Below are positions 8,582 to 37,080 of a stretch of 64,000 bases of DNA, one piece after another. Positions within the stretch are counted from its first letter, which is position 1. Every line of letters starts with the position of its first letter. The notes under the pieces are model-generated. The model searched no databases. It saw only the letters and a program-made list of their open reading frames with translations, and was not told the DNA's origin. The stretch spans positions 78,787-142,786 of the forward strand of contig JASAND010022041.1 in assembly GCA_030248195.1 (NCBI GenBank). Direction: 5' to 3'. The stretch is from Trissonchulus latispiculum. Lineage: Eukaryota > Nematoda > Enoplea > Enoplida > Ironidae. The translations under genes and the position numbers were made by a program.

Positions 8582-8755
8582 TGAACTAAGTCTAAGAACA
8601 GGACCCGGGCTGAAGCAGTATCCCAACTATCATTCTAAGGACAAGCATGTCAAACGGAATTTTTTACTATCTATCCAACCACTGTTTCAGTTTAATCTCA
8701 AGGCTTAAAATTAGTAAACGTTTTGCTGCTGATATTTTTTCAACTATTTTCCATT

Positions 8756-9007
8756 TTATTTAGTATATGCATATATACACATTGCACACCAATAAATTAC
8801 AAGGTCTTCATTTACACTATATACATCAACAAGCAGTGTACAATATGAAATAAAGGCAATTATGCGTCCATAGTTCACTTTGTCACTAAAGGTGTTTTGA
8901 GCAACCAGTCTAATATGCTCAAGGAAACAGTCAGATCTATTGGGGACGGGTAGATCCAAATGGTGGTTGGAAAAATTATTCTTCACAAATTTATAGGTTG
9001 AATCCAT
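8756..9007 (-). CDS. Copy 1: small Bcl-2 BH1-motif protein candidate
   Basis: An 83-residue protein. Residues 36-54 read like a Bcl-2 homology 1 motif: the core NYGRIIAF (45-52) matches the family's N-W-G-R-hydrophobic-A-F pattern, preceded by F-S-D and followed by hydrophobic helix-like sequence. A BH1 helix forms part of the groove by which Bcl-2 proteins bind partners and control apoptosis. The protein is much shorter than a full Bcl-2 fold (about 140 residues or more) and lacks a clear BH2, so it may be minimal, spliced or a chance match. The same gene in copy 2 keeps the motif intact and differs mostly by conservative changes. It overlaps the 3' end of the zinc-protein gene by 25 nt. A viral-type apoptosis inhibitor is my inference. 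Confidence 0.5.
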   Translation of the reverse strand: MDSTYKFVKNNFSNHHLDLPVPNRSDCFLEHIRLVAQNTFSDKVNYGRIIAFISYCTLLVDVYSVNEDLVIYWCAMCIYAYTK

Positions 9008-9243
9008 TGTTCTAGACCTGTGTATCTTTTATGATTGGGCCTAGCACATTCAAATATCAAATGGGCTCCAAGTCTTGTAGTGAAACGGCCACAAATGTGA
9101 CAAAGTTGTAGTCGCTTTGCTTGCCTACTTGTTAGACGTTTTGGAGGTGACGGCTTCTTGCGTATCCAAACTCCAAGGGCAACCAAATCAAGAATGCACT
9201 GGCAATTTTTAGATTTCAGACAAGTCTTACAGCGTTTTGCCAT
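8983..9243 (-). CDS. Copy 1: small cysteine-rich zinc-binding protein
   Basis: 86 residues, starting at ATG 9243. Cysteines are arranged C-x2-C-x5-C-x-C near the N-terminus and C-x2-C...H...C in the second half, separated by a Lys/Arg-rich stretch; this suggests one or two zinc-binding knuckles and perhaps nucleic-acid binding. A TATAAAGG box lies 35 bp upstream of the ATG. The C-terminal ten residues differ from copy 2, which ends earlier and then starts the next gene with an ATGA overlap. Function unknown. Confidence 0.65.
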   Translation of the reverse strand: MAKRCKTCLKSKNCQCILDLVALGVWIRKKPSPPKRLTSRQAKRLQLCHICGRFTTRLGAHLIFECARPNHKRYTGLEQWIQPINL

Positions 9244-9270
9244 CTCAAATGAATGTCCAAATTTTTGCAG

Positions 9271-9278
9271 CCTTTATA
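9271..9278 (-). promoter_or_regulatory. TATA box of zinc-protein gene, copy 1
   Basis: TATAAAGG, with its first base 35 bp upstream of the ATG at 9243. The same spacing and a near-identical box (TATAAATG) are found in copy 2. Confidence 0.65.
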
Positions 9279-9303
9279 CAACTTGCATTACCAGAACGGA
9301 GTT

Positions 9304-9570
9304 TCACCTAAACGGAGGCTGAATTGTCCAAGATTCTATAACTTTTCCATTCTTCCAATGATGAATTTTGATAAGTGGTGTCCCATGACAATCAGGTATG
9401 TCATAGTCAGCATTCAAGGCGCTGACATATGCTTCATGAACTGATTTAAACATTTGGTTGCTAAGACCAACCGGTTGTCCATAAATGGTGACTAATTCCC
9501 AGGAATACGTTTTTGAAATACGATGACATTTTGTTACTTTAATAGACAGCGCATTACCAGAACGGAGGTA
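9304..9570 (-). pseudogene. Copy 1: open frame without ATG in the variable gene slot
   Basis: Directly after the capsid-gene stop, 88 codons stay open in the same frame. They have no ATG near the start, and nothing resembles the membrane protein found here in copy 2. The segment is bounded by two copies of GCATTACCAGAACGGAG (9285-9301 and 9551-9567). Copy 2 has only one copy of that sequence, just before its zinc-protein gene. This looks like the tail of a different cargo gene left after a recombination. No homologue is recognised. Confidence 0.35.
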
Positions 9571-10866
9571 TTATACCTTCTCCCAAGAGGGATTCCTGTT
9601 TTTGTCAAGTTTCATGAGAGCATTATACTCAGCAACATAGAAAACGACAATTGATGTGCCCAGAGCTTCCTTATAGTCAATTTTAATTCTAATTGTGCCA
9701 TATTCTTCCGGACTAATATAGTTACAATCAGCAGAATGATCAGGAGTCAAGTCAATGCATGTAATGAAGAATCCCACCCTATAGTCATCCCATTTAAACC
9801 CAAGATCAATATTGTTATAGTTTAAACCTCTAAGAAATTCCATAAATAAATTTGGATACTTATATTCTCCAAGAGTTTGGAGTGGAGTTGAATGTGGAAG
9901 GAGCATTTCATTTTTATAAACATAGATTCTCTGAGCTCCAAAATCCAAAAAGTAGAATGGATTATTCTGCAATGAACCATTATATGCGGCTTGTTTCACC
10001 ATGAAGATGTAAACTCTCCTTGGAAGAGAACCACTATAAGGTACCCAATCCAGATTTTGTTCTCCAATAGAGATTGTACGGCATTTAGTATCGTAGCGAA
10101 GAGCTGGGTATGTGCAGCCTGTAGAATTTAGAATTTTGTTATGTTGTAGCAGTGCCAGATCACTCAGCTTAATTCGAGATACATACATTTTGGCATCTGA
10201 TATTTTTAAAATGCACTCCACTTTTTTACCAATGAAAATGAAATTTGGCTCAGAACGCTTGAAGATGAAACTCACTTCAGTTTGTGGAGGTAGCAATTTT
10301 GGCATCAATATTGTATCTGTAAACACCCTGGTGTATAATGTGAAAACTTTGGAACCTTCGATTATATCGTATCGCTTTTGCAATCCCTCATTAACAACTA
10401 TTGGAGGGGCATCATCGTCTAAATTAATGTCAAAAAACAAAGGAGAGTCTTGTTCATACATTGCCCCACAAAGTAGCGCATCTTTTTCCGGTTTTGTATA
10501 GTTAACTAAACATAGCAGGTACGAAAGCCAGGGATAATACGGATTTTTCAATGTAATTGACTGGTCAGAAATGAGACAGTCTACACTAGACCACATGGAG
10601 TAGCCCAAGTTATTGATTGGTCCAGTTTTATCGACTTCAGTTAATTGTGTTCCGTCCTTTTTTAGCACTTGTGCCCTAATAAATAAAAAACAGGAGGTCA
10701 GATCAATAAAAGTATCTGTTTTATCAATTTTGAATTCAATATTGTTAAGATCTGAACGAGGAAGGGCTGTAGTGCACGGGACTTCAACCAATTGTGAGCT
10801 TACAACATCTTCATGAACAGGAATTGGGACATTCCATTCAAGCAGCTTATTCCCACATCTAGCCAT
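9571..10866 (-). CDS. Copy 1: major capsid protein candidate (double jelly-roll type)
   Basis: 431 residues, ATG at 10866, which shares its A with the stop of the basic-protein gene (TAATG). The sequence is rich in predicted beta strands, has no signal peptide or membrane segment, and has the length expected for a small double jelly-roll capsid protein. It resembles the widespread invertebrate proteins annotated as F54H12.2-like, which occur in Maverick-type elements; that comparison is from memory of the family, not a search. Its position after the basic-protein gene and with an ATPase, polymerase and integrase in the same unit supports a virion role. Intact here; copy 2 has an internal stop. 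A TATAAAAG box lies 41 bp upstream of the ATG. Confidence 0.6.
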   Translation of the reverse strand: MARCGNKLLEWNVPIPVHEDVVSSQLVEVPCTTALPRSDLNNIEFKIDKTDTFIDLTSCFLFIRAQVLKKDGTQLTEVDKTGPINNLGYSMWSSVDCLISDQSITLKNPYYPWLSYLLCLVNYTKPEKDALLCGAMYEQDSPLFFDINLDDDAPPIVVNEGLQKRYDIIEGSKVFTLYTRVFTDTILMPKLLPPQTEVSFIFKRSEPNFIFIGKKVECILKISDAKMYVSRIKLSDLALLQHNKILNSTGCTYPALRYDTKCRTISIGEQNLDWVPYSGSLPRRVYIFMVKQAAYNGSLQNNPFYFLDFGAQRIYVYKNEMLLPHSTPLQTLGEYKYPNLFMEFLRGLNYNNIDLGFKWDDYRVGFFITCIDLTPDHSADCNYISPEEYGTIRIKIDYKEALGTSIVVFYVAEYNALMKLDKNRNPSWEKV

Positions 10867-11009
10867 TAGAAATTTGTCTTTCTCGTATTCTTTTTCTTGC
10901 TTTTATACTTTTTCTTAGCAGGTGCTTTTTTCTTGGAAGTCGCTTTTACCTTGGATTCGCTAATATTCCTTGCTTCGGAATTAATGTGCTTAAACTTTAT
11001 TGGAAACAT
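10866..11009 (-). CDS. Copy 1: 47-residue basic (core-like) protein
   Basis: A short gene starting at ATG 11009. The N-terminus reads MFPIKFKHINSEA; the second half is mostly Lys with Arg, Ser, Thr and Ala (AKKKYKSKKKNTRK) and resembles small DNA-condensing core proteins of adenovirus-like virions. The stop overlaps the capsid ATG by one base. A CTTAAAAG box lies 36 bp upstream and overlaps the stop of the 110-aa gene. The capsid gene's TATAAAAG lies within this coding sequence. The role as a genome-packaging protein is inferred from charge and position. Copy 2 retains the same start and basic tail but has a frameshift between them. Confidence 0.6.
   Translation of the reverse strand: MFPIKFKHINSEARNISESKVKATSKKKAPAKKKYKSKKKNTRKTNF
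10900..10907 (-). promoter_or_regulatory. TATA box of capsid gene, copy 1
   Basis: TATAAAAG, starting 41 bp upstream of the capsid ATG and lying inside the basic-protein gene. At the same position copy 2 has CTTAAAAG. Confidence 0.6.
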
Positions 11010-11037
11010 TGTGACTACTAAAGTAACAATGCTGGCA

Positions 11038-11045
11038 CTTTTAAG
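11038..11045 (-). promoter_or_regulatory. TATA-like box of basic-protein gene, copy 1
   Basis: CTTAAAAG, 36 bp upstream of ATG 11009. It contains the TAA stop of the 110-aa gene. Identical sequence and spacing in copy 2 (35102-35109). Confidence 0.45.
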
Positions 11046-11373
11046 CTTTTAAAATAATTTCCACCAACCCCAATTCCTCGCTTGTCACTAACTGTCCGTG
11101 CAGGTCAGAAATGGATAGTTCAATTTTATCGATTATACTTTGACGAGTTGCGTGATAAACTAGCGTGCTTGGCTGGTATTCTGAACGAGCGACGCATAGT
11201 AGTGGTACATAGTTTCCATTGAAAATTTGAGGCTCAATAAACTCTACCTGAATCATAATCCATTCATCAGTTGGTAGAACAACTCTTTGCAGTGCTATCT
11301 GACTCGCCTCCAAAGGTGTAGCAAGTTGGATTTTCATGTTATTAAGTGGTTTAGCTATTGTTACAAACTCCAT
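11041..11373 (-). CDS. Copy 1: 110-aa protein, penton/minor-capsid candidate
   Basis: 110 residues with alternating hydrophobic residues suggesting beta structure, ending in a segment around ELSISDLHGQLV and ELGLVEIILK. This ending pattern is shared, as far as I recall, with longer proteins encoded next to the capsid gene in related invertebrate elements, which are thought to be minor capsid or penton proteins; this one is short. It sits between the TBP and basic-protein genes. A TATAAAAG box lies 34 bp before the ATG, inside the end of the TBP gene. Copy 2 has an intact version with about six substitutions. Confidence 0.5.
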   Translation of the reverse strand: MEFVTIAKPLNNMKIQLATPLEASQIALQRVVLPTDEWIMIQVEFIEPQIFNGNYVPLLCVARSEYQPSTLVYHATRQSIIDKIELSISDLHGQLVTSEELGLVEIILKA

Positions 11374-11379
11374 TTTTTA

Positions 11380-11895
11380 TCAAAGCGAAAGATTACTTGC
11401 TTTTATAACTTTTACCAATTCGTTCTGTGAGCGTTGCAACTGTTGAAGTGATTTGTTGCCAGTAATTACACATTTTCCAGTATAAAAAATAAGCGCAGTG
11501 CTACCCGCTTTTAGTTCCAAAGTAATTGCAGGAAATGTTTCTGGAGTGAAATTTAACATATAGTTGTGCCTCAAATAGCTATATATCCAAGACAAGTCGA
11601 GCTTTCTCCCTATATCGCAAGTTCCGACAATATTTTGTATTTTCAACTCCCATGATTGCACAAGATAGCCTAATTTGGTCAAAAATACAGCACACTCTTT
11701 AAGGGTTTCATAAGCTTTATTAACAGTTTTGGCACCAAGACATACAACACGACCATTACTAAATATCTGACAAGTACAAGACAATTTCAATGTAGCAGCA
11801 CTAAAGCGTTTTGGATTATATTTTACATTAGGTAAACTGTACAAGTCTATATTACATTTAAAGTCTGCGGATACTATTACATTGACTATATTCAT
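11380..11895 (-). CDS. Copy 1: TATA-binding protein (TBP) homologue
   Basis: 171 residues, the size of a TBP core with no N-terminal extension. Two TBP-type repeats are visible. Repeat one (about 1-85) contains YNPKRFSAATLKL, then IFSNGRVVCLGAK; repeat two (about 86-171) contains KIQNIVGTCDIGRKLDL, then a LIFYTGKCVITG segment. These are the signature blocks of eukaryotic TBP, including the F-S/N-G-R/K strands of the DNA saddle and the conserved K-I-Q-N-I-V-G link. TBP nucleates transcription complexes at TATA boxes. Sequence divergence from cellular TBP looks large, so this is an element gene and not recent host DNA. The start overlaps the NADAR gene by 38 nt. Copy 2 is frameshifted between the repeats. 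Confidence 0.88.
   Translation of the reverse strand: MNIVNVIVSADFKCNIDLYSLPNVKYNPKRFSAATLKLSCTCQIFSNGRVVCLGAKTVNKAYETLKECAVFLTKLGYLVQSWELKIQNIVGTCDIGRKLDLSWIYSYLRHNYMLNFTPETFPAITLELKAGSTALIFYTGKCVITGNKSLQQLQRSQNELVKVIKASNLSL
11400..11407 (-). promoter_or_regulatory. TATA box of 110-aa gene, copy 1
   Basis: TATAAAAG, 34 bp upstream of ATG 11373, overlapping the last codons of the TBP gene. Conserved in copy 2 at 36 bp. Confidence 0.7.
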
Positions 11896-12382
11896 TTCTA
11901 ATACGTGTCAATAATTGTCCAAGTATATTTTCTCCAGGCCAGTCATTTACATTTATAACCCTTTCATCGTTAATGTCCAGTCCAATACCCCAATATTTAT
12001 CCCACTTTGAAGCTTCAGCAATGATACAATCATTAGTCTCTATCAAAAGGTTTCGTTGTCGTTCATTTTGAGCAAACTTGGCTCGCAGACCCATAAGCAT
12101 AACGTCTTCAGCAACGACCATCCACTTTTCCTTATCAAATCCTTTGATTCCTTTCGCAAGTTGTTTGTGAACACGAGGTGACTTGGCCTTGATAATCTCA
12201 CGATAAGTATAGACATCATTAAAGAACTTGGCCTTCTCACATTGATAGTACTGTTCAACGCAGTTGTAATCAATGCCACCTAATGTAAAAGGTGCAATGT
12301 GGAAATTGCTAAATGGTGACCAGCCAGAATGAAACACAACCATTGGTTGGTTATCCAAGGTAAGGCAATAGTATGTAGGCAT
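11858..12382 (-). CDS. Copy 1: NADAR-family protein
   Basis: 174 residues from ATG 12382. It begins near SGWSPFSNFHIAPF and continues with a YNCVEQYYQCEKAKFF segment, an IKGFDKEKW motif and a C-terminal KWDKYWGIG. These are hallmark blocks of the NADAR (YbiA-like) fold: S-x-F-S-N-F, the E-Q-Y-x-Q-x-x-K helix and the W-G-x-G-L end. Known NADAR enzymes are N-glycosidases on riboflavin intermediates or on ADP-ribosylated guanine in nucleic acid. Here it lies among structural and regulatory genes, so removal of ADP-ribose marks placed by a host defence is a possible role, by inference only. The copy 2 version is nearly identical. Confidence 0.85.
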   Translation of the reverse strand: MPTYYCLTLDNQPMVVFHSGWSPFSNFHIAPFTLGGIDYNCVEQYYQCEKAKFFNDVYTYREIIKAKSPRVHKQLAKGIKGFDKEKWMVVAEDVMLMGLRAKFAQNERQRNLLIETNDCIIAEASKWDKYWGIGLDINDERVINVNDWPGENILGQLLTRIRNEYSQCNSIRRL

Positions 12383-12464
12383 TTTTAATTCAAAAACAAT
12401 CGTTAACACTTGTTTTTACAGCACAAAACTGGAACTTAAGTTTTCCGATTGCTGCATCAGTGTG
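12383..12464 (-). other. Short spacer between 126-aa and NADAR genes
   Basis: 82 bp, nearly identical in both copies. It holds only TGTAAAAAC about 38 bp before the NADAR ATG, a weak candidate for a TATA-like element. Confidence 0.3.
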
Positions 12465-12845
12465 CTAGGTTTCATATTTTAACCACTTGATCGGTTCGGA
12501 GGCACGACCTACACCCAATGCTGCTTTGGGTACAGATGCAAGAAACTGTTCAAACTTAGGAGCATCTAGAGGTCGCTGTGGACTAAATTTAGCAGGTGTT
12601 ATATAATATCTCACCAGGTCATACAGATTTGAACCGATTGTTTTGTCAGGATAAATAACTCGTCCGTTTGCGTCCGTTTCTACATTAACATGCTGTAGGA
12701 GCAGAGACGCTTTATTGCGCAAATGCTTGGGGAAAAGTGCAACAAGGTCAGGCTTATCTTCTTGTACCAGCTGCACTACAGGTTGAATCGCTTCTGGTGC
12801 TGTTTTCACAGGAGAAGAAGGAATCAGAGCTAATCGTTTAGCCAT
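12465..12845 (-). CDS. Copy 1: conserved 126-aa protein of unknown function
   Basis: 126 residues. The N-terminal third is Pro/Ser/Val-rich and probably disordered. A compact region from about 35 contains FPKHLRNKASLLLQHV and a GSNLYDLVRYYITP segment, ending with a Pro-Lys-Phe-hydrophobic motif. Proteins of this pattern recur in related invertebrate virus-like elements, but no activity is known to me. Its ATG lies 16 nt inside the 3' end of the preceding 100-aa gene. Copy 2 is intact with four substitutions, which argues for past selection. Confidence 0.6.
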   Translation of the reverse strand: MAKRLALIPSSPVKTAPEAIQPVVQLVQEDKPDLVALFPKHLRNKASLLLQHVNVETDANGRVIYPDKTIGSNLYDLVRYYITPAKFSPQRPLDAPKFEQFLASVPKAALGVGRASEPIKWLKYET

Positions 12846-13132
12846 TTTAGCATAACTTCAAGCAATATATGCACTAGTTGATTCCTTTTAAGAGTTTTCC
12901 GTTTAACAGTAATTGCCACTTTTTTATCAGCTATAATGAGAATATCCTTTTTAAATTTTCTCAGCTTGGATATATCTGACGGACTTAATGAAAAATCGCC
13001 ATACAGTGCATTGAATGCGACTTCTGCAAAAGCATTGATCAAATCTTTGGAACAAGATGATAAAGTTGCATTTACAACAGCTTGTGGCGCTGATTTCAAA
13101 AATGTTAGGGTATGAATATGTTTCTGAGCCAT
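12830..13132 (-). CDS. Copy 1: conserved 100-aa basic helical protein
   Basis: 100 residues from ATG 13132. The middle is predicted helical (a segment around CSKDLINAFAEVAFNAL), then LSPSDISKLRKFKKD, then Lys/Arg-rich DKKVAITVKRKTLKRN and a short hydrophobic end. The arrangement (helix, 'nal-x-G-d', L-S-P, basic tail) is typical of a small conserved protein of related elements; function not known to me, possibly a minor virion component. A TATAAAAGG box lies 34 bp upstream. Copy 2 is intact and differs by four residues. Confidence 0.6.
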   Translation of the reverse strand: MAQKHIHTLTFLKSAPQAVVNATLSSCSKDLINAFAEVAFNALYGDFSLSPSDISKLRKFKKDILIIADKKVAITVKRKTLKRNQLVHILLEVMLKWLND

Positions 13133-13158
13133 TTTCAAATTTGAGCTAAAATATTGAC

Positions 13159-13166
13159 CTTTTATA
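13159..13166 (-). promoter_or_regulatory. TATA box of 100-aa gene, copy 1
   Basis: TATAAAAG, 34 bp upstream of ATG 13132. Its TAA is the stop codon of the ATPase gene. Same sequence and spacing in copy 2. Confidence 0.7.
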
Positions 13167-13845
13167 TTCTTGGAAGATAGGCATAAGGCTTCTCTTTGGC
13201 CAATATTCCACTAAGCACTCTTAATTTTGGATCACTACCTGGCTTCAGATTAAGCACTAGGTATCCGAAAGGTTGCTTTGTTGCCATTTCAAAGGCTTCT
13301 GGAAGGAAATCTTTCTTCGTTGGAAACATTTGTCTACCAATTGTCGCAATCATTGAAACATCTCTATAGTTTGGGAATAGTACAATATACTGAGCATTGC
13401 GGGTAACTGTGCGCATGTATTTAGATTCAAAGTACAAGTTTTGTACAATGAAAATAGTGCTCACGTTCACATGCCTCATCTTAGTAAACAGCTGAGTGAT
13501 ATGTTTGTCTTCTACTTCGGCCATCAGATCATCCAGTATAAGCAAAGTATCCTTCTCAGGCAACTCATCAGGAAACCCTTCGTGTAAAATGGCTGGGATA
13601 TCGTTATAAATTTCTTGAAACATGCTGTAACATATCATTACATTTGCTGGCATTGGATCTACCAACTTGCTTCTTATCATATCAATCACCCATTTGGTTT
13701 TCCCTGAACCTGTCATTCCGCTAACAATCATTGTAAAAGGCGCATGAAATTTAAAAATCGGCTCTTTCAAAGCGTGTGACTTTTGATGTTTGTGCAAGCT
13801 TTGTCGATGCTTGAATTGTTTGCTGCAATCAGTGCACTTATACAT
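13162..13845 (-). CDS. Copy 1: genome-packaging ATPase with N-terminal C2H2 finger
   Basis: 227 residues from ATG 13845. Residues 4-24 form a C2H2 zinc finger (C4, C7, H20, H24). A Walker A motif GMTGSGKTK is at about 43-51 and Walker B LLILDDL at about 101-107, followed by a Gln-containing sensor segment (VQNLYF). This is the FtsK/HerA-like, A32-type packaging ATPase of Polinton and adintovirus-like elements, which drives DNA into the capsid. The open frame extends 28 codons upstream into the heptamer array, but copy 2 has no such extension and the TATA box falls inside it, so the later ATG is chosen. Intact. Confidence 0.87.
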   Translation of the reverse strand: MYKCTDCSKQFKHRQSLHKHQKSHALKEPIFKFHAPFTMIVSGMTGSGKTKWVIDMIRSKLVDPMPANVMICYSMFQEIYNDIPAILHEGFPDELPEKDTLLILDDLMAEVEDKHITQLFTKMRHVNVSTIFIVQNLYFESKYMRTVTRNAQYIVLFPNYRDVSMIATIGRQMFPTKKDFLPEAFEMATKQPFGYLVLNLKPGSDPKLRVLSGILAKEKPYAYLPRI

Positions 13846-13873
13846 ATTGGATGCTGCATTTATTATCTTACTA

Positions 13874-13881
13874 CTTTTATA
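13874..13881 (-). promoter_or_regulatory. TATA box of ATPase gene, copy 1
   Basis: TATAAAAG, 36 bp upstream of ATG 13845; the same box and spacing occur in copy 2. It lies between the heptamer array and the gene. Confidence 0.7.
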
Positions 13882-13889
13882 TTTTTCAA

Positions 13890-14151
13890 GCCGTAAGTCG
13901 TCAGCCGTCAGCCGTAAGTCGTCAACCATCAGCCGTCAGCCGTAAGTCGTCAGCCGTAAGTCGTCAGCCGTCAGCCGTCAGCCGTAAGCCGTCAGCCGTA
14001 AGCCGTCAGCCGTCAGCCGTCAGCCGTCAGCCGTAAGCCGTATGTCGTCAGCCGTCAGCAGTAAGCCGTAAGTCGTCAGCCGTCAGCCGTAAGTCGTCAG
14101 CCGTAAGCCATCAGCCGTAAGTCGTCAGCCGTAAGCCGTCAGCCGTCAGCC
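13890..14151. repeat. Heptamer minisatellite, copy 1
   Basis: About 37 tandem units, almost all one of two 7-mers on the plus strand, GCCGTCA and GCCGTAA (with a few GTCGTCA variants). The array fills the whole gap between the integrase and ATPase genes; the integrase stop lies in its first units. Copy 2 has an array of nearly the same length at the same place, so it pre-dates the duplication. Confidence 0.93.
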
Positions 14152-15187
14152 ACTGATGTCTTCCTCACCTATCCAAGAGTTCATCGATGAAGGATACCCT
14201 AACCATTTAACAAGATATTGTACTTTTCCTTTATATTTTCGTTTTCGTAAAACTTTTTCAACCTTATAAACATCATCAGTTTGTATAATTTTCTGTAGTT
14301 CAGGCTCGTAAAAAGTTCCAACAATTTCTTCACCACTTGCATCTTTTATTTTATAAACAACTGGATCACTAGGAATTTGTTCACTAATTGAGAAAATTTC
14401 TCTTGTCCATAATGGTAAATAACCTTTTTGAAAAACCCCTCGCTCCTTTGTGATTCTAACCAGATCACCCAACTTAAACATGTAGTGTACTGTTCGATCA
14501 TTTGGGGGAAATAGCTTTGCTCTAACCTCATCTTTATTCGTCTCGTTAACCTCAACTGGTGCCATTCCGATACTGCGATGTTTTGAATTATTGTACGAGG
14601 TGACCAAATCTTGCAATGCATCGGCATAGCGCCAAGAATTCGAGTGTGTAAAGTATTTGTAAATTTTCCCTTTCAGGGTTCTAATTGCCCTCTCAGCAAT
14701 TGCTGCCTTTGTATCTGGATTTTGACTTGTATAGTAGTTAATACCTCTGTCAGTACAGTAAGTTTTAAACTTTGCATTCAGAAACTCACCACCTTTATCT
14801 GTCATCAAATGATGAGGCGTGCGCGGAATCTGGGAAAATGCTGCTATAATTGTTTCTGGCTTTTTGTCTTTTACTGGAAATACCCACAAAAATTTGCTAA
14901 ATGTATCTATAACAACTAAAATATATTTAAAGCCATCATTCCATTTAGCTACACTACTCATATCGGCAAGATCCATTTGCCATAGATCATCTATTCCTTT
15001 AGTTATTGTTCGACGGCGCTTAAATTTTAGCTTACGCAGCTTATGCAGTGTATAGGCTTCTTGACTCAGCAGCCATTCTTTCACATCTTTTCTGCTCACG
15101 TAATCTTGCTGCTTTTGCAGCTTTGTAAAGCTTTTCAATGCTACTTAACGATCCTGGATTCTGCAAACTATAGTAGATTTTATCCAT
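14146..15187 (-). pseudogene. Copy 1: integrase with chromodomain, broken near the start
   Basis: Same protein as the intact copy 2 integrase. The 330-codon open frame contains the catalytic D (in DLWQMDLADM), D (in LMTDKGGEF) and E (in AAIAERAIR) and the C-terminal chromodomain. The expected ATG at 15187 is present, but a 2-nt deletion about 75 nt downstream relative to copy 2 puts the start out of frame with the rest, and no other ATG precedes the first catalytic Asp. So this copy has probably lost function. It follows the polymerase gene by about 30 nt. Confidence 0.85.
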
Positions 15188-15213
15188 TTTTGGTAAACTT
15201 GTAACGAGAAAGT

Positions 15214-15221
15214 CTTTAATA
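15214..15221 (-). promoter_or_regulatory. TATA-like box of integrase gene, copy 1
   Basis: TATTAAAG, 34 bp upstream of ATG 15187. Its TAA is the stop codon of the polymerase gene. Same sequence and spacing in copy 2. Confidence 0.55.
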
Positions 15222-17270
15222 GTTTATTTTATGATGACCATAAGCATAACTAGATACACCGTCGTCGAGCAAATATCGCTTATCATCATAAGACAAACTA
15301 GCTTTGTTCAAATGCACGCTATACAATTGATGCAGATTACTTCTAATCAAGTTCATATTATGATACATATGTGTTCGCTGTTGCAAAGTATTTACATAGT
15401 CAGCATGGGCAATACATTTCTTTACGACATTCTTTTTTATGCCTTTTGCTCGTTTTTTATCAATACCATCACATACAAAACTATACATTTTGGCACGTAG
15501 ACCACAAAATTCACTTATTGGACTTCCAGCCGTCTCATCTTTCATCTTACCCAAAACTTTTTTATTTAGAGTAGAGTGAAGAAAATGAGATGGTGGATAA
15601 TCACTTTTATCAAATAGAGCATTATCATTGTGCATATCGCTGTATACATTATCTGTATGAATACAATAACACAAGGAATCAGTATCTGTAAATAACAATT
15701 TTGCATTTTCTCTATATTTATGTACAACGTAATTATAGTGGAAATCATACATGAGATATTTAGATAAATCAAGCACACTGAATCCAACATAAATTGGCTT
15801 GCATAACTTTACAGAAACTCTATTCATAGATACAGCAACTAATTCTTCAGAAAATATTACAGCACGGTTGAATCTTGGCTTAGCAGTCAATTTTACAAAT
15901 TTCTGTTCGTCGGTTACAAGCTGTACAGATTGGTAGGCTCGTACATTTTCCATAGTTTTTCCGAATACCGCATTGTTTAGCAGCTTAAATAAATCTTTTT
16001 CAAAGTCACTCTTAGCATTTTTTCTCATTTCTGTATTAAACTCAATATATGGCTTCATCCAAGGACGTTGATCAAACCTAAGGACACGATGAATATGAGT
16101 TAGTTTCAGTCCAAGTTGAAGATACAGACGGAGGTTGCGATAATGGACAATATAGTTGGTTTTGGGGCGAAGGTTTGGGACTAGTTTTTCGACCTTGGAA
16201 GGAGTTGTTCCAAGATCTTCACAAAGTGATTGAGCAAAAGGACTTAGCATTTCTCCTGTAATTTGCAACTTTTCGGGGGCCAGGGGATAACCATTGTGCA
16301 AATCATGGAGTTGTTGGGGATATTCTAGATCGACTTCAAGAACATAACCACTGTTTTGATTGTCAGTTTGAGCATGGCAGTTAATAACATCTATTTCCTG
16401 CCGACTTAACCAACGAAAATCTTTCACTGGCAGTTTCTGGACCATTGTCCATCCATACAAATTGTTAGCGTCGAGGTACATAATCCAGGAATTTGGTTTG
16501 GAAGGATCGAAGTTAGGCACGTCAGGGTTATTCGCTTTGGCGAAGCGGTGGGAGATCATAGAGATACCGCCTCTAATTCCTTGTTCAAAGAATAGGTACA
16601 TGTCTGGATCTTGCAGTAGTTCCAACCAGACTTTTGTCATTTTAAGACACGCGTCCCAAGCAAAAGAAGGTAAAGTTAAGTAATGAGCAGGATCTAGACC
16701 GTAGTTTTGAAGGGCAAATCGTCGAAAACTTTCGAAAACATCAGCAAGCAATAAAACATCGGTTTTCAAATATAAATCATGATATTGACCAAGGTTTTGG
16801 ATGTTGAATTGACTCCAAACCTGCTGGGCGTGTTCATAATCCTCATCTTTGATGTCTTCCTGATTCAAGTGATTCCAGAAGTTGTCCTTAGATGGTAGCT
16901 GAGTTTCGTTGAATTTATCCCAACTATCCATGTAGTCATAAGGATAAACGCCTTTTCTTAGCAGCATTTTCAATTCGTTTTCATTAAATTCATTAACCAT
17001 CGCTTGAAACTTTTCAAAGCCTTCCTTGGACAGGTTAGATACAAGAGATTCCAAAGAGCTTGTGAGAAATTGGAATGTGTCAATGAACCTAATCTTCCAC
17101 ATTCCTTCATCATCTTCGTCATCATCGGCAGCTTCATTGTCAATTAAGACATTGGCTTGTTGCCTTTTCGGTACCCTCTTCTTTTTCAGAGTGAAACTTA
17201 AGTAATCTTCCATTCCTTTTGGGATGCAATCTAATATGAGTCCCAACTCATTACAGATCAATCCAATTTC
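15216..17270 (-). CDS. Copy 1: DNA polymerase B, main exon
   Basis: 684 codons open after a splice acceptor (TTTTATTTTAG, AG at 17272-17271). An acidic linker is followed by the second and third exonuclease regions (FIDTFQFLTSSLESL; YLKTDVLLLADVFE), polymerase motif A (YLDANNLYGW, about residue 264 of the exon), motif B (KLLNNAVFGKT, about 425) and motif C (LFTDTDSLCY, about 524). This is the protein-primed family B polymerase (DNA_pol_B_2) of Polinton-like elements, which replicates the element. The first exonuclease motif and everything N-terminal are missing, because the upstream exons lie beyond the inverted-repeat join. No break is seen in the remaining frame. Confidence 0.88.
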   Translation of the reverse strand, partial: EIGLICNELGLILDCIPKGMEDYLSFTLKKKRVPKRQQANVLIDNEAADDDEDDEGMWKIRFIDTFQFLTSSLESLVSNLSKEGFEKFQAMVNEFNENELKMLLRKGVYPYDYMDSWDKFNETQLPSKDNFWNHLNQEDIKDEDYEHAQQVWSQFNIQNLGQYHDLYLKTDVLLLADVFESFRRFALQNYGLDPAHYLTLPSFAWDACLKMTKVWLELLQDPDMYLFFEQGIRGGISMISHRFAKANNPDVPNFDPSKPNSWIMYLDANNLYGWTMVQKLPVKDFRWLSRQEIDVINCHAQTDNQNSGYVLEVDLEYPQQLHDLHNGYPLAPEKLQITGEMLSPFAQSLCEDLGTTPSKVEKLVPNLRPKTNYIVHYRNLRLYLQLGLKLTHIHRVLRFDQRPWMKPYIEFNTEMRKNAKSDFEKDLFKLLNNAVFGKTMENVRAYQSVQLVTDEQKFVKLTAKPRFNRAVIFSEELVAVSMNRVSVKLCKPIYVGFSVLDLSKYLMYDFHYNYVVHKYRENAKLLFTDTDSLCYCIHTDNVYSDMHNDNALFDKSDYPPSHFLHSTLNKKVLGKMKDETAGSPISEFCGLRAKMYSFVCDGIDKKRAKGIKKNVVKKCIAHADYVNTLQQRTHMYHNMNLIRSNLHQLYSVHLNKASLSYDDKRYLLDDGVSSYAYGHHKINY

Positions 17271-17353
17271 CTAAAATAAAAACATAATTAGCCAGTGCAA
17301 AAATCTAAACTATTGCAAAGCTAGAAATAAAATTATTATATATTTTCACTTAC
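17271..17353 (-). other. Copy 1: 83-bp polymerase intron
   Basis: Begins GTAAGTG and ends TTTTATTTTAG. Removing it joins two open frames in phase 0. In copy 2 the donor has decayed to CAGTAGTG. Confidence 0.75.
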
Positions 17354-19135: not shown

Positions 19136-19199
19136 ATTATGGGTATGTCACATTATAAGTCACGGAAAGTGCAGAAGGTTTCTCAGAAAGTTGATGATT

Positions 19200-29950: not shown

Positions 29951-29997
29951 GAAACCTTCTGCACTTCCCGTGAGTTATAGCGTGACATACCCATTAT

Positions 29998-30931
29998 ACA
30001 TTACCGCAACCTCCGTCTGTACCTACAGCTTGGACTGAAACTAACTCATATTCATCGGGTCCTTAGGTTTGATCAACGTCCTTGGATGAAGCCATATATT
30101 GAGTTTAATACAGAAATGAGAAAAAATGCTAAGAGTGACTTTGAAAAAGATCTATTTAAGCTGCTAAACAATGCGGTATTCGGAAAAACTATGGAAAATG
30201 TACGAGCCTACCAATCTGTACAGCTTGTAACCGACGAACAGAAATTTGTAAAATTGACTGCTAAGCCAAGATTCAACCGTGCTGTAATATTTTCTGAAGA
30301 ATTAGTTGCTGTATCTATGAATAGAGTTTCTGTAAAGTTATGCAAACCAATTTATGTTGGATTCAGTGTGCTTGATTTATCTAAATATCTCATGTATGAT
30401 TTCCACTATAATTACGTTGTACATAAATATAGAGAAAATGCAAAACTATTATTTACAGATACTGATTCCTTGTGTTATTGTATTCATACAGATAATGTAT
30501 ACAACGATATGCACAATGATATTGCTCTATTTGATACAAGTGATTATCCACCATCTCATTTTCTTCACTGTACTCAAAATAAAAAAGTTTTGGGTAAGAT
30601 GAAAGATGAGACGGCTGGAAGTCCAATAAGTGAATTTTGTGGCCTGCGTGCCAAAATGTATAGTTTTGTATGCAATGGTATTGATAAAAAACGAGCAAAA
30701 GGCATAAAAAAGAATGTCGTAAAGAAATGTATTGCCCATGCTGACTATGTAAATACTTTGCAACAGCGAACATATATGTATCATAATATGAACTTGATTA
30801 GAAGTAATCTGCATCAATTGTATAGCGTGCATTTGAACAAAGCTAGTTTGTCCTGTTATGATGATAAGCGATATTTGCTCGACGATGGTGTATCTAGTTA
30901 TGCTTATGGTCATTATAAAATAAACTATTAA
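29998..30931 (+). pseudogene. Copy 2: DNA polymerase B, 3' part
   Basis: Continuation of the interrupted polymerase. A 281-codon frame from 30086 contains motif B (KLLNNAVFGKT) and motif C (LFTDTDSLCY) and is about 97% identical to copy 1 by eye, with one extra residue near the end (SCYDDKR against SYDDKR). Separated from its 5' part by the 10.85-kb insertion, it cannot make a full polymerase unless the insertion excises. Confidence 0.9.
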
Positions 30932-30933
30932 AG
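30926..30933 (+). promoter_or_regulatory. TATA-like box of integrase gene, copy 2
   Basis: TATTAAAG, 34 bp before ATG 30960, containing the polymerase stop codon. A further TATAAAATA starts at 30914, 46 bp upstream. Confidence 0.55.
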
Positions 30934-30959
30934 ACTTTCTCGTTGCAAGTTTACCAAAA

Positions 30960-32261: not shown

Positions 32262-32267
32262 GAAAAA

Positions 32268-32275
32268 TATAAAAG
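32268..32275 (+). promoter_or_regulatory. TATA box of ATPase gene, copy 2
   Basis: TATAAAAG, 36 bp upstream of ATG 32304. Confidence 0.7.
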
Positions 32276-32303
32276 TAGTAAAATAATAATTCAGACATTC
32301 AAA

Positions 32304-32987
32304 ATGTATAAGTGCAATAAGTGCAACACAGAATTCAAGCATCGACAAAGCTTGCACAGACATTTAAAGTCACATGTTTCGAAAGAGCCAATTTTTAAAT
32401 TTTATGCACCTTTTACAATGATTGTTAGCGGAATGACAGGTTCAGGAAAAACTAAATGGGTGATTGATATGATAAGAAGCAAGTTGGTAGATGCAATGCC
32501 AGCAAATGTAATGATATGTTACAGCATGTTTCAAGAAATTTATAACGATATCCCAGCCATTTTACACGAAGGGTTTCCTGATGAGTTACCTGAGAAGGAT
32601 ACTTTGCTTATACTGGATGATCTGATGGTCGAAGTAGAAGACAAACATATCACTCAGCTATTTACTAAGATGAGGCATGTGAACGTGAGCACTATTTTCA
32701 TTGTACAGAACTTGTACTTTGAATCTAAATACATGCGCACAGTTACCCGCAATGCTCAGTATATTGTACTATTCCCAAACTATAGAGATGTTTCAATGAT
32801 TGCGACAATTGGTAGACAAATGTTTCCAGCGAAGAAAGATTTCCTTCCAGAAGCCTTTGAAATGGCAACAAAGCAACCTTTCGGATACCTAGTGCTTAAT
32901 CTGAAGCCAGGTAGTGATCCAAAATTAAGAGTGCTTAGTGGAATATTGGCCAAAGAGAAGCCTTATGCCTATCTTCCAAGAATATAA
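32304..32987 (+). CDS. Copy 2: genome-packaging ATPase with C2H2 finger
   Basis: 227 residues, intact, with the same start as chosen in copy 1 because there is no upstream in-frame extension here. Finger C4, C7, H20, H24; Walker A 43-51; Walker B 101-107. Differences from copy 1 cluster in the zinc finger and the linker after it (for example NKCNTEF against TDCSKQF), while the ATPase domain is almost unchanged. Confidence 0.88.
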   Translation: MYKCNKCNTEFKHRQSLHRHLKSHVSKEPIFKFYAPFTMIVSGMTGSGKTKWVIDMIRSKLVDAMPANVMICYSMFQEIYNDIPAILHEGFPDELPEKDTLLILDDLMVEVEDKHITQLFTKMRHVNVSTIFIVQNLYFESKYMRTVTRNAQYIVLFPNYRDVSMIATIGRQMFPAKKDFLPEAFEMATKQPFGYLVLNLKPGSDPKLRVLSGILAKEKPYAYLPRI

Positions 32988-32990
32988 AAG
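32983..32990 (+). promoter_or_regulatory. TATA box of 100-aa gene, copy 2
   Basis: TATAAAAG, 34 bp upstream of ATG 33017, containing the ATPase stop TAA. Confidence 0.7.
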
Positions 32991-33016
32991 GTCAATATTT
33001 TAGCTCAAATTTGAAA

Positions 33017-33319
33017 ATGGCTCAGAAACATATTCATACCCTAACATTTTTGAAATCAGCGCCACAAGCTGTTGTAAATGCAACTTTATCATCTTGTTCC
33101 AAAGATTTGATCAATGCTTTTGCAGAAGTCGCATTCAATGCACTGTATGGCGATTTTGCATTAAGTCCGTCAGATATATCCAAGCTGAGAAAATTTAAGA
33201 AGGATATTCTCATTCTGGCTGATAAAAAAGTGGCAATTACTGTTAAACGGAAAACTCTTAAAAGGAATCAGCTAGTGCATATATTGCTTGAAGTTATGCT
33301 ACAATGGCTAAGCGATTAG
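33017..33319 (+). CDS. Copy 2: conserved 100-aa basic helical protein
   Basis: Intact, four residues different from copy 1 (S to A near 53, I to L near 69, K to Q and N to S near the end). Its last codons overlap the start of the 126-aa gene by 16 nt in another frame. Function unknown. Confidence 0.6.
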   Translation: MAQKHIHTLTFLKSAPQAVVNATLSSCSKDLINAFAEVAFNALYGDFALSPSDISKLRKFKKDILILADKKVAITVKRKTLKRNQLVHILLEVMLQWLSD

Positions 33320-33766: not shown

Positions 33767-34291
33767 ATGCCTACATACTATTGCCTTACCTTGGATAACC
33801 AACCAATGGTTGTGTTTCATTCTGGCTGGTCACCATTTAGCAATTTCCACATTGCACCTTTTACATTAGGTGGCATTGATTACAACTGCGTTGAACAATA
33901 CTATCAATGTGAGAAGGCCAAGTTCTTTAATGATGTCTACACTTATCGTGAGATTATCAAGGCCAAGTCACCTCGTGTTCACAAACAACTTGCGAAAGGA
34001 ATCAAAGGATTTGATAAGGAAAAGTGGATGGTCGTTGCTGAAGACGTTATGCTTATGGGTCTGCGAGCCAAGTTTGCTCAAAATGAACGACAACGAAACC
34101 TTTTGATAGAGACTAATGATTGTATCATTGCTGAAGCTTCAAAGTGGGATAAATATTGGGGTATTGGACTGGACATTAACGATGAAAGGGTTATAAATGT
34201 AAATGAGTGGCCTGGAGAAAATATACTTGGACAATTATTGACACGTATTAGAAATGAATATAGTCAATGTAATAGTATCCGCAGACTTTAA
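33767..34291 (+). CDS. Copy 2: NADAR-family protein
   Basis: 174 residues from ATG 33767, with one amino-acid change from copy 1 (N-E-W-P for N-D-W-P). All NADAR signature blocks are kept. Intact while several neighbouring genes in this copy are broken. Confidence 0.85.
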   Translation: MPTYYCLTLDNQPMVVFHSGWSPFSNFHIAPFTLGGIDYNCVEQYYQCEKAKFFNDVYTYREIIKAKSPRVHKQLAKGIKGFDKEKWMVVAEDVMLMGLRAKFAQNERQRNLLIETNDCIIAEASKWDKYWGIGLDINDERVINVNEWPGENILGQLLTRIRNEYSQCNSIRRL

Positions 34292-34765
34292 ATGTAATAT
34301 AGACTTGTACAGTTTACCTAATGTAAAATACAATCCAAAACGTTTTAGTGCTGCTACATTGAAATTGTCTTGTACCTGTCAGATATTTAGTAATGGTCGT
34401 ATTGTATGTCTTGGTGCCAAAACTGTTAATAAAGCTTATGAAACCCTTAAAGAGTGTGCTGTGTTTTTTACCAGATTAGGCTTATGCAACCATGGGAGTT
34501 GAAAATACAAAATATTGTCGGAACTTGTGATATAGGGAGAAAACTCGACTTGTCTTGGATATATAGTTACTTGCGTCATAACTATAGGTTAAATTTTACT
34601 CCAGAAACATTTCCTGCAATTACTTTAGAACTAAAAGCAGGTAGCACTGTGCTTATTTTTTATTCTGGAAAATGTGTAATTACTGGAAATAAATCACAAG
34701 AGCAACTACATCGCTCATACAAAGAATTAGTAAAAATTATAAAAGCAAGTAATGTATTAGTTTAA
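34254..34765 (+). pseudogene. Copy 2: TBP homologue, frameshifted
   Basis: The first TBP repeat is open from ATG 34254 and nearly identical to copy 1. A 4-nt deletion at about 34486 relative to copy 1 shifts the frame, so the second repeat lies in another frame (open to 34765). The first half is about 98% identical in DNA to copy 1, the second half only about 88-90%. Confidence 0.87.
34738..34745 (+). promoter_or_regulatory. TATA box of 110-aa gene, copy 2
   Basis: TATAAAAG, 36 bp upstream of ATG 34774, inside the end of the TBP sequence. Confidence 0.7.
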
Positions 34766-34773
34766 CTTAAAAA

Positions 34774-35106
34774 ATGGAGTTTGTAACTATAGCTAAACCA
34801 CTTAATAATATGAAAATCCAGCTTGCTACTCCTGTCGAAGCAAGTCAAATAGCACTGCAGAGAGTCGTTCTGCCTACAGATGAATGGATTATGGTCCAGA
34901 TAGAATTTATTGAGCCTCAAATTTTCAATGGAAACTATGTACCGCTACTATGCGTTGCACGTTCAGAGTATCAGCCCAGCTCTCTAGTATACCATGCAAC
35001 TCGTCAAAGCATAATAGATAAAATTGAACTATCCATTTCAGATCTGCAAGGACAGCTCGTGACAAGCGATGAATTGGGGTTGGTGGAAATTATTTTAAAA
35101 GCTTAA
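34774..35106 (+). CDS. Copy 2: 110-aa penton/minor-capsid candidate
   Basis: Intact, about 95% identical in protein to copy 1 although the DNA is only about 88% identical; many changes are at third positions, a sign that the protein was under purifying selection when the copies diverged. Confidence 0.5.
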   Translation: MEFVTIAKPLNNMKIQLATPVEASQIALQRVVLPTDEWIMVQIEFIEPQIFNGNYVPLLCVARSEYQPSSLVYHATRQSIIDKIELSISDLQGQLVTSDELGLVEIILKA

Positions 35107-35109
35107 AAG
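35102..35109 (+). promoter_or_regulatory. TATA-like box of basic-protein gene, copy 2
   Basis: CTTAAAAG, 36 bp upstream of ATG 35138, containing the stop of the 110-aa gene. Confidence 0.45.
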
Positions 35110-35137: not shown

Positions 35138-35291
35138 ATGTTTCCAATAAAGTTTAAGCAAATTAATCCTGATAGCAGTTGATGTTTCAGATATTAAAAT
35201 CAAAAAACAGAAAAAGACAGCAAAGAAAAAATCAGCTTCAACAAAAAAGCTTAAAAGCCAGAAAAAGAGTGGGAGAAAAACAAATTTCTAA
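35138..35291 (+). pseudogene. Copy 2: basic core-like protein, frameshifted
   Basis: Starts MFPIKFKQINPDSS, then a TGA. The Lys-rich C-terminal part and its stop (overlapping the capsid ATG) remain in another frame. Homologue of the 47-residue protein in copy 1. Confidence 0.6.
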
Positions 35292-36586
35292 TGGCTACAT
35301 GTGGAAATAGACTACTCCAGTGGAATGCTCCAGTTCCTGTGCATGAAGATATCGTAAGCTCACAGTTGGTTGAAGTTCCATGCACTACAGCCCTTCCTCG
35401 CTCTGACCCTAACAATATCGAATTTAAAGTTGACAAAACAGATGCATTCATAGATCCAACCTCTTGTTTTTCATTCATCAGAGCTCAAGTGTTGAAAAAA
35501 GATGGGACACAATTAGCTGAAATCGATAAAACTGGACCAATCAATAACTTAGGATACTCTATGTGGTCAAGTGTAGACTGTCTCATTTCTGACCAATCTA
35601 TAACATTGAAAAATCCGTATTATCCTTTGCTTTCGTACCTACTATGCTTAGTTAACTATACAAAACCGGAAAAAGATGCACTGCTGTGCGGGGCAATGTT
35701 TGAACAAGACTCTCCATTGTTTTTTGACATTAATTTGGATGAGGGTGCTCCTCCAATAGTCGTAAACGAAGGGTTGCAGAAACGTTACGATCGAATTGAA
35801 GGCTCTAAAGTTTTTACTTTATACACTAGGATATTTACTGATACAATTTTGATGCCAAAACTGCTACCTCCGCAAACTGAAGTGGGTTTCGTCTTCAAGC
35901 GTTCTGAGCCAAATTTAATTTTCATTGGTAAAAAAGTAGAATGCATTTTAAAAATAACTGATGCAAAAATGTTTGTATCTCGAATTAAGTTGTGTGATCA
36001 GGCACTACAGGAACATAATAAAATTCTAAATTCAACAGGTTGCACATATCCAGCTCTTCGCTACGATACTAAATGTCGCACAATCTCTACAGGAGAGCAA
36101 AATCTGGATTGGGTACCTTATAGTGGTTCTCTTCCAAGGCGAGTTTAAATTTTCATGGTGAAGCAAGCAGCGTATAATGGTTCTTTACAGAATAATCCAT
36201 TTTACTTTTTGGATTTTGGAGCTCAGAGAATCTATGTTTATAAAAACGAAATGCTTCTGCCACATTCAACTCCACTGCAAACTCTTGGAGAATACAAGTA
36301 TCCAGATTTGTTTATGGGATTTCTTAGGGGATTAAACTATCATAATATGGATATAGGATTTAAATGGAGTGACTACAGAGTGGGATTCTTCATTACATGT
36401 GTGGATTTAACCCCTGACCATTCTGCCGATTGTAACTATATTAGTCCCGATGAATACGGCACAATTAGAATTAAGATTGACTATAAAGAAGCACTTAGTG
36501 CATCAATTGTTGTTTTCTGTGTAGCTGAGTATAATGCTCTCATGAAACTTGACAAAAATCGGAACCCGTCCTGGGAAAAGGTATAA
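35291..36586 (+). pseudogene. Copy 2: major capsid candidate with internal stop
   Basis: Colinear with copy 1 over its whole length. A single TAC-to-TAA type change at 36146-36148 ends the frame after 285 residues; the rest (from 36155) stays open in the same frame. The two proteins are about 92% identical, and the DNA is more diverged than in the polymerase-to-NADAR half. The TATA box at -41 is degraded to CTTAAAAG (35250-35257). Confidence 0.65.
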
Positions 36587-36589
36587 AAG
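36582..36589 (+). promoter_or_regulatory. TATA box of membrane-protein gene, copy 2
   Basis: TATAAAAG, 38 bp upstream of ATG 36620, containing the capsid stop codon. In copy 1, which lacks the downstream gene, the same place reads TATAATAC. Confidence 0.65.
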
Positions 36590-36619: not shown

Positions 36620-37012
36620 ATGGATAAAAAGAAGTTTATAATAATTGGTTCGATATCAATAAGTGTAACGGTTTTCATCGTAATCTCTGTTATTGTCTCA
36701 TTAAATTTAAAGTCACCGAAACCGTTCTCACCGGTTACTATTGAGTTGCTCCCTGATAGAAGTGTAGCTCTTGTTCAAAATCGAATACGAAAAGCGTTAT
36801 CCCTGAAGCAATTTTACAAGCTTCGAAACTTTATTCAGGATTGCGCAGGACAGCAGTGTAACATAAACAAATCAAGTGACTTGTTATGTCCATATACGTC
36901 GCAACAATTTGACTGGAAATTGTGTTTTGCTGACGACAAACAAATAATGTTTGGGTGGATAGGTAAATTAACTCTAAAAAGAGAGGACCTTCTTCACATT
37001 ACTGAAATATGA
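36620..37012 (+). CDS. Copy 2: 130-aa single-pass membrane protein
   Basis: Starts MDKKKF, followed by a strongly hydrophobic segment (about 7-28: IIIGSISISVTVFIVISVIV), then a 100-residue domain with four or five cysteines (DCAGQQC, LLCPYTS, KLCFADD). This is a type II signal-anchor layout with a Cys-containing outer domain. No homologue is recognised. It is present only in copy 2; copy 1 has different sequence here. It may be a virion membrane or host-interaction protein, which is inference from layout only. Confidence 0.5.
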   Translation: MDKKKFIIIGSISISVTVFIVISVIVSLNLKSPKPFSPVTIELLPDRSVALVQNRIRKALSLKQFYKLRNFIQDCAGQQCNINKSSDLLCPYTSQQFDWKLCFADDKQIMFGWIGKLTLKREDLLHITEI

Positions 37013-37072: not shown

Positions 37073-37080
37073 TATAAATG
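37073..37080 (+). promoter_or_regulatory. TATA box of zinc-protein gene, copy 2
   Basis: TATAAATG, 36 bp upstream of ATG 37109. Just before it is CCTCCGTTCTGGTAATGC, the sequence that is duplicated in copy 1. Confidence 0.6.

Follow-up and report, generated by a model that had tools for sequence, protein, structure and literature searches.

A virus-like element in a nematode genome encodes its own TBP and carries a TATA-type box at a nearly constant distance before most of its genes

A TATA-type box before most genes

A 64,000-bp stretch of the genome of the nematode Trissonchulus latispiculum (contig JASAND010022041.1, positions 78,787 to 142,786; hereafter the window) contains two copies of one element, which lie in opposite orientation and match at 86-97% over most of their length. 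Self-comparison of the window places copy 1 at ~8756-17600 on the minus strand and copy 2 at ~29990-37600 on the plus strand. The gene order is DNA polymerase B (PolB), integrase (INT), ATPase, a protein of ~100 aa (p102), a protein of 126 aa (p126), a NADAR-domain protein, a TATA-binding protein (TBP), a protein of 110 aa (p110), a small basic protein, capsid, a membrane protein (copy 2) and a zinc-motif (Zn) protein. Most of these genes are preceded, at a narrow range of distances from the ATG, by a short TATA-type box; the boxes, and the TBP encoded among them, are the subject of this report. Searches of the whole host genome (734 Mb) returned at least 102 matches to the capsid and at least 152 to the TBP; comparisons between copies are of distinct sequences of related copies in this same genome.

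All boxes of copy 1 are on the minus strand. The integrase gene has TATTAAAG at 34 bp (15214..15221), with the polymerase stop codon TAA inside the box. TATAAAAG lies 36 bp before the ATPase gene (13874..13881), 34 bp before p102 (13159..13166, with the ATPase stop inside the box), 34 bp before p110 (11400..11407, within the TBP gene) and 41 bp before the capsid gene (10900..10907, within the basic gene). CTTAAAAG is found 47 bp before p126 (12885..12892, within the p102 gene) and 36 bp before the basic gene (11038..11045, with the p110 stop inside the box), and TATAAAGG 35 bp before the Zn gene (9271..9278). On the plus strand of copy 2 the boxes are TATTAAAG at 30926..30933 (INT, 34 bp); TATAAAAG at 32268..32275 (ATPase, 36 bp), 32983..32990 (p102, 34 bp), 34738..34745 (p110, 36 bp) and 36582..36589 (membrane protein, 38 bp, with the capsid stop inside the box); CTTAAAAG at 33257..33264 (p126, 47 bp), 35102..35109 (basic, 36 bp) and 35250..35257 (capsid, 41 bp); and TATAAATG at 37073..37080 (Zn, 36 bp).

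The original prediction, which drew attention to this arrangement, gave the same distances in both copies for all of these genes but p126. It described the capsid box of copy 2 as degraded; CTTAAAAG is instead a regular alternative, present in 8 of 35 copies, with TATAAAAG in 25. It also listed the NADAR, TBP and 126-aa genes as having weak or absent boxes. This holds for NADAR and TBP, where none of the four box sequences occurs in the upstream 70 bp (one TATAAATG lies ~62 bp before the TBP ATG, within the NADAR gene), but not for p126, whose CTTAAAAG at -47 is found in both window copies and in 25 of the 27 copies examined. Conservation of the p126 box is not independent evidence, because the box sits in the coding sequence of the preceding gene.

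Shortly upstream of the Zn-gene box there is an exact 17-bp motif, CTCCGTTCTGGTAATGC, at 9285-9301 and 9551-9567 on the minus strand and at 37049-37065 on the plus strand; the occurrence at 9551-9567 precedes an extra TATTAAAG (9537-9544) ahead of a broken extra gene in copy 1. With up to three mismatches, 0.09 occurrences are expected, and the motif is well conserved in 25 other aligned copies. It is possibly an upstream element.

Boxes exceed chance expectation and are conserved between copies

Motif matches fall exclusively on the coding strand, with 10 against 0 on the antisense strand in copy 1 and 9 against 0 in copy 2. Eight of the ten in copy 1 (6.5 kb) lie 33-47 bp before one of 10 ATGs. 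Enrichment over shuffled controls, a check proposed with the original prediction, is pronounced: 1,000 dinucleotide shuffles of copy 1 gave on average 1.03 matches (maximum 5), and 0.015 (maximum 2) near an ATG. In the whole window, 11 of 15 TATWAAAG sites are inside the two elements, all on the element coding strands. The motif set was picked after inspection of the sequence, and therefore a blind search and conservation between copies weigh more than the shuffle counts. When the 10 upstream windows were searched blind for 8-mers, CATAAAAG was recovered, with at most one mismatch, in 7 of them (p 3e-10); the best of 27 position-shifted controls reached 8e-9, in 4 of 10 windows.

Conservation at a near-constant spacing is likewise borne out by related copies in this genome. 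When the conservation of each box was ranked among 51 windows, the box came first for four of the six genes ranked, namely p102 (22 other copies), p126 (26), p110 (37) and basic (31), and third for capsid (34 other copies); the integrase and ATPase upstream regions, with one other copy each, were left out of the ranking. At the same time the spacer drifts: for p102, p110 and basic, the box has an identity of 0.99 to copy 1, and the spacer one of 0.74, 0.77 and 0.61, respectively. Median synonymous divergence (dS) between copies is 0.44-0.71 in the six genes measured. Over the copies the distance from box to ATG is 34-39 bp for p102, 47 for p126, 33-42 for p110, 36-37 for basic and 34-36 for Zn; for capsid it is 40-41 in 32 of 35 copies, and 41 in 30 of them.

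For the integrase, the genome was searched with a pattern consisting of TATTAAAG, a free gap of 18-44 and the integrase coding start. It matched at 44 places, both window copies among them, and the reversed-pattern control at none; places beyond the window copies are taken as integrase genes from the pattern alone. With 26-52 bp allowed, the distance from box to ATG is 34 bp in 32 cases, 33 in 9, 32 in 2 and 37 in 1. Fourteen of the 44 matches were compared by spacer, and these include near-identical ones together with at least three clearly different spacers. Together these data support a reading of the boxes as conserved elements that resemble core promoters and whose position is tied to the ATG that follows.

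The element TBP is intact and under selection

The TBP gene of copy 1 (11380..11895, minus strand) encodes a protein of 171 aa with two repeats (Pfam TBP, E 1.7e-36), matches TBPs in the PDB with E down to 3e-27 and gives an AlphaFold2 model with a mean pLDDT of 91. In copy 2 the gene (34254..34765, plus strand) is broken into two overlapping open frames, and the genome search matches it in two pieces. Among full-length, gap-free and stop-free copies, the median ratio of nonsynonymous to synonymous divergence (dN/dS) is 0.127 for TBP (33 copies), 0.094 for p110 (33), 0.053 for capsid (27), 0.141 for NADAR (8) and 0.159 for p126 (24); a single pair of Zn genes gives 0.141. The original claim that the element carries its own TBP is upheld, and the sequence comparisons support a protein that is intact in copy 1 and under purifying selection.

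Compared with yeast TBP, the copy 1 protein keeps F99, F116, F190, F207, N69, N159, V161 and T215, and has the changes L114Q, T124L, Y185F, E186T and L189T. Within the family of the window element (family A), four of five TBPs have all four intercalating phenylalanines, and the fifth, L057, has S at F207; the comparison is of these five rows, with L040 and L054 not counted. Glutamates on the E186 side of TBP contact TFIIB. A study of a herpesvirus TBP mimic gives E184 and E188 as such contacts (PMC12529657).

A tree was built from 24 TBP sequences without the host TBP, and with family A represented by a set that includes L040, L050 and L055 and omits L054. Fourteen element TBPs lie on one side of a branch (96/95, 98% of bootstraps) and the 10 others on the opposite side. 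Thus the element TBPs compared form one clade on this tree, and they do not group with the cellular TBPs that it contains, among which the host TBP is not represented; long branches make the depth of the split uncertain.

Two further TBP-bearing families have different boxes

Two other families of TBP-bearing elements are present in the genome. Family B comprises six regions (L061-L066), three of them distinct, and its capsid is 35% identical to that of family A. Its genes are polymerase, two unknown genes, integrase, a 404-aa protein, basic, capsid, ATPase, and proteins of 106 and 149 aa. In the 404-aa protein a TBP (Pfam E 4.5e-24) is fused to a further ~200 aa, which take the position of the 110-aa gene of family A. 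In all three family B TBPs compared the third intercalating phenylalanine is absent, and these also differ from yeast at V71, V122 and T124. Family C (L067-L073) has a TBP (Pfam E 4e-25 and 2.8e-30 in the two scanned) in which the F99 site aligns as Y (three of three), an ATPase that is 36% identical to that of family A and has no Pfam match, and a relative of the copy 2 membrane protein.

Box statistics are based on L063, L064 and L065 for family B (L061, L062 and L066 were left out as close to L065) and on L067, L068 and L070 for family C, where the start codons are our own choice. An A-type box is found in the upstream 70 bases of 16 of 21 gene starts in family A, 0 of 24 in B and 0 of 19 in C (Fisher 4e-11), and ATAARWAG or TTAARTAG in 0 of 21, 11 of 24 and 9 of 19, respectively (Fisher 9e-5); both p values overstate the difference, since the gene starts of one family share ancestry and some loci are nearly identical. 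The copy 2 Zn start was counted, by eye, as matching neither pattern. The box type is ATTAATAAGTAGG in family B and, tentatively, AATAAGAAG in family C. A blind search of family B recovered ATTAATAA in 12 of 24 starts (p 3e-13), with 1e-8 for the best of 16 shifted controls. Each of the seven family C regions examined has a single AATAAGAAG, which lies in coding sequence where the TBP gene ends. In families A and B, the 70 bp upstream of the TBP genes contain no box of the respective family.

Family C also encodes a protein (L067:3045-3533 and L068:1981-2478, both minus strand) that may resemble a death-effector-type domain of the kind known from adintoviruses; a Pfam scan of the L067 protein gave no match.

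Gene content and nature of the element

The C-terminal part of the copy 1 polymerase occupies 15216..17261 (minus strand) in an open frame that is cut short upstream. It matches the family B polymerase (BLASTP E 9e-17), which in turn matches Pfam DNA_pol_B_2 (PF03175, E 2e-10); the copy 1 fragment itself has no Pfam or PDB match. Between 16149 and 19138, part of the copy 1 polymerase region is present a second time as an inverted duplicate, with 97-100% identity in the four longest arm pairs, and for this reason the polymerase start is unreadable in copy 1. The integrase frame is broken near its start in copy 1 (14146..15187, minus) and open in copy 2 (30960-32003, plus), with an rve core (Pfam E 3.9e-11) and a chromodomain (E 1.3e-11). 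The ATPase (13162..13845, minus) is of the A32 packaging type (Pox_A32, E 1.7e-8), and has an N-terminal C2H2 finger that falls short of the Pfam cut-off (zf-C2H2, E 0.0013). Between the integrase stop and the ATPase box, both copies contain a tandem array of 14- and 21-bp units (13888-14151, minus; 31998-32274, plus); related arrays of 21-bp TTTCGAGACA-type units adjoin the broken ends of both copies (19198-19462 and 29688-29939).

Relatives in family B are 38% identical to p102 (12830..13132, minus) and 35% identical to p126 (12465..12845, minus). Neither p126 nor p110 has a match in Pfam or NCBIfam, and p102 has none in NCBIfam. The NADAR-domain protein (11858..12382, minus, in copy 1; 33767-34291, plus, in copy 2) matches its Pfam family at E 2.9e-40, and the 3' end of its gene overlaps the TBP start. 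The gene for p110 (11041..11373, minus) corresponds in position to the C-terminal half of the TBP fusion in family B; by gene order and the motif QPQ..N..LPLL.V, p110 is perhaps a candidate minor capsid protein, the profile match being weak. Next come the basic protein of 47 aa (10866..11009, minus), the major capsid protein of 431 aa (9571..10866, minus; 35291..36586, plus, in copy 2, where one stop interrupts it) and the zinc-motif protein (8983..9243, minus; Pfam E 0.07 only). The membrane protein (36620..37012, plus), which within the window is confined to copy 2, has its family C relative at BLASTP E 6e-15.

An AlphaFold2 model of the capsid protein (pLDDT 66) matches the major capsid proteins of Sputnik, PBCV-1 and an iridovirus with E to 2e-13 and VIA-align Z to 24.5, and the fold is by prediction a double jelly roll; the original description as a virus-like transposon is therefore right. 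A PolB, here putatively protein-primed, a retroviral-type integrase, an A32/FtsK-type ATPase and a double-jelly-roll capsid are hallmarks of the Polinton/Maverick type. By its gene set the element belongs with the Polinton-like integrated DNA viruses or virus-like transposons. No protease family was found among the 10 window proteins scanned with Pfam, a subset of the open frames. Only one weak inverted pair (30 nt, 73%: 8619-8648 and 18340-18369) brackets most of copy 1. Just past copy 2 is a very long Thr/Ser-rich open frame made of ~171-bp repeats (37821-42071, minus).

Alignments of TBP, capsid and integrase found no relative in a viral contig collection; a protein database yielded three capsid relatives (26-37% identity), nine TBPs, and nothing for the family B TBP fusion.

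A possible late-promoter system of the element

What best accounts for these observations, and what we consider rather probable, is a late-promoter system owned by the element, with a separate TBP and box for each lineage; that the TBP binds the boxes, that the genes fire in a temporal order, that leaders are short and that the host polymerase is used we infer. Most genes (integrase, ATPase, capsid and the small proteins) would each have a compact core promoter, with a single box ~34-41 bp before the ATG (47 for p126) that often overlaps the end of the preceding gene. Host machinery would transcribe the boxless TBP gene first, and probably that of the polymerase. The TBP genes of families A and B, and NADAR in family A, are without a family box, and such a start is the simplest scheme. 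The element TBP would then bind the boxes and bring host RNA polymerase II to the remaining genes, in the way that the herpesvirus (KSHV) TBP mimic serves late genes (PMC12529657), and the capsid-phase genes would fire together once TBP has accumulated. Transcription usually starts ~30 bp after a TATA box, which would place the start only a few bases before the ATG and give leaders of only a few bases. Each lineage would have evolved its own TBP and its own box, and the different boxes of the two other TBP-bearing families are as expected if each TBP reads its own. The self-reading promoter system first suggested is supported in part, by the conserved boxes tied to the ATG, the selected and intact TBP and the other TBP families with different boxes; reading of the boxes by the TBP, and an early/late split, are putative.

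A wider proposal, which we regard as plausible but would not put at even odds, is that at least three element lineages in one genome have TBPs that derive from one ancestor and diverged together with their boxes (TATAAAAG/CTTAAAAG in A, ATTAATAAGTAGG in B, AATAAGAAG in C), making separate and mutually insulated core-promoter codes in one nucleus. In family B the TBP, joined to what is probably a component of the capsid, could be carried inside the particle.

Several observations weigh against an element-owned system. The box of the Zn gene ranks only 16 of 51 in conservation (25 other copies), and 3 of 35 copies have the capsid box at 56 bp from the ATG. Because several boxes fall within genes, part of their conservation may reflect the encoded protein, and as the copies are related their counts are not independent events. 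The integrase pattern demands a box and does not give the number of box-free integrase genes. In families B and C the spacing is looser than in A (32-63 and 36-65 bp), with boxes at only 11 of 24 and 9 of 19 starts. The family C box is tentative because the blind search, with ATAAGCAG-like sequences in 10 of 19 starts (p 3e-14), was nearly equalled by the best of 19 shifted controls (5e-12); contrary to a boxless TBP gene, one of three TBP starts in this family (L068) has a B-type box at -41. Finally, TATAAAAG is a strong ordinary TATA box, of a kind that suits an ordinary TBP, and host TBP could thus read family A.

The last point leads to the alternative that survives best, that the boxes are true core promoters read by host TBP/TFIID and that the element TBP does another job, for instance as a competitor of host TBP or as an aid to replication or packaging. 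That the element TBP differs from cellular TBPs at positions on the DNA and TFIIB sides (L114Q, T124L, E186T, L189T) also speaks for it. However, the boxes differ between the three TBP-bearing families that share one nucleus (that of C being tentative), where one host TBP would be expected to keep one box, and purifying selection keeps the TBP together with the capsid. We think this alternative unlikely. A second possibility is that the TBP and its 110-aa neighbor are virion parts, and that a packaged TBP acts at once after entry, which would make it an early rather than a late factor. The in-frame joining of the family B TBP to a 200-aa domain at the p110 position, beside the basic and capsid genes, is what one would expect. 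Yet the motif shared by that domain and p110 is visible while the profile match is weak (probability 6.7%, E 0.0055), and each of the three family B subfamilies has a box 36 bp ahead of an in-frame ATG within the fusion, so that the second domain may be made separately. On balance a role in the virion seems improbable.

That the boxes might be poly(A) signals, or stop-codon context of the preceding gene, is suggested by the upstream stop TAA inside four of them (polymerase to INT, ATPase to p102 and p110 to basic in copy 1; capsid to membrane protein in copy 2) and by the AATAAA within some family B boxes. In copy 1, however, the distance from box to upstream stop runs from -60 to +267 bp (SD 103, seven genes), against 34-47 bp (SD 4.3, eight genes) to the downstream ATG, and three boxes sit within the upstream gene, which a poly(A) signal there would shorten. 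A tight distance to the ATG and a loose one to the stop fit compact promoters and not poly(A) signals, and we hold this explanation to be very improbable. Chance or shared ancestry, with AT-rich DNA (~60-64% AT in this region) and recent duplication of related copies mimicking conservation, is scarcely credible and largely refuted by the shuffle and shift controls, by boxes kept where adjacent spacers diverged, and by the 44 boxes that lie 32-37 bp before integrase-type starts, where some of the spacers clearly differ.

Comparison with known systems

The element-owned promoter system proposed here has partial counterparts. Polintons/Mavericks and adintoviruses share the element's PolB, rve integrase, A32-type ATPase and double-jelly-roll capsid; the texts searched on these groups (including PMC10328495, PMC4642659 and PMC10120064) gave no match for TATA or TBP, and the open-licence literature, so far as it was covered, holds no report of a TBP in Polintons, Mavericks or adintoviruses. 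Virus-coded TBPs are found in large viruses. TBP is recorded in 59% of mirusvirus genomes as against 0% in Nucleocytoviricota (PMC10132985), and African swine fever virus, which encodes its own RNA polymerase (PMC7458399), has a predicted TBP, B263R (PMC5825884). The literature covered, itself partial, contains no family-specific box set for mirusviruses or African swine fever virus.

In the beta- and gamma-herpesviruses, ORF24 of Kaposi's sarcoma-associated herpesvirus (KSHV) is a viral TBP mimic that acts at TATTWAA late promoters and needs its four intercalating phenylalanines (PMC12529657). The likeness lies in a virus-coded TBP fold with four phenylalanines and a short AT-rich box that makes up nearly the whole late promoter, and the integrase box TATTAAAG fits TATTWAA. 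The differences are that only this box fits, the other genes having TATAAAAG, CTTAAAAG, TATAAAGG or TATAAATG; that KSHV uses six viral proteins and an ORF24 with extra domains; and that the TBP here is a bare core in families A and C, fused to another protein in B, and carried by a Polinton-like element.

Viral TBPs and Polinton-like elements are both known; their combination, with the sign of separate TBP-box pairs in one genome, is new as far as our search of the open-licence literature goes. TBP and the TATA box are nearly fixed across eukaryotes and archaea. If the proposal is right, a small selfish element runs its own core-promoter system on the host polymerase, and Polinton-like elements gain a gene-expression switch, not found in the literature searched, and could supply promoter-reading parts. 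The joint divergence of element TBPs and boxes would then amount to a natural experiment in how a TBP-box pair can change.

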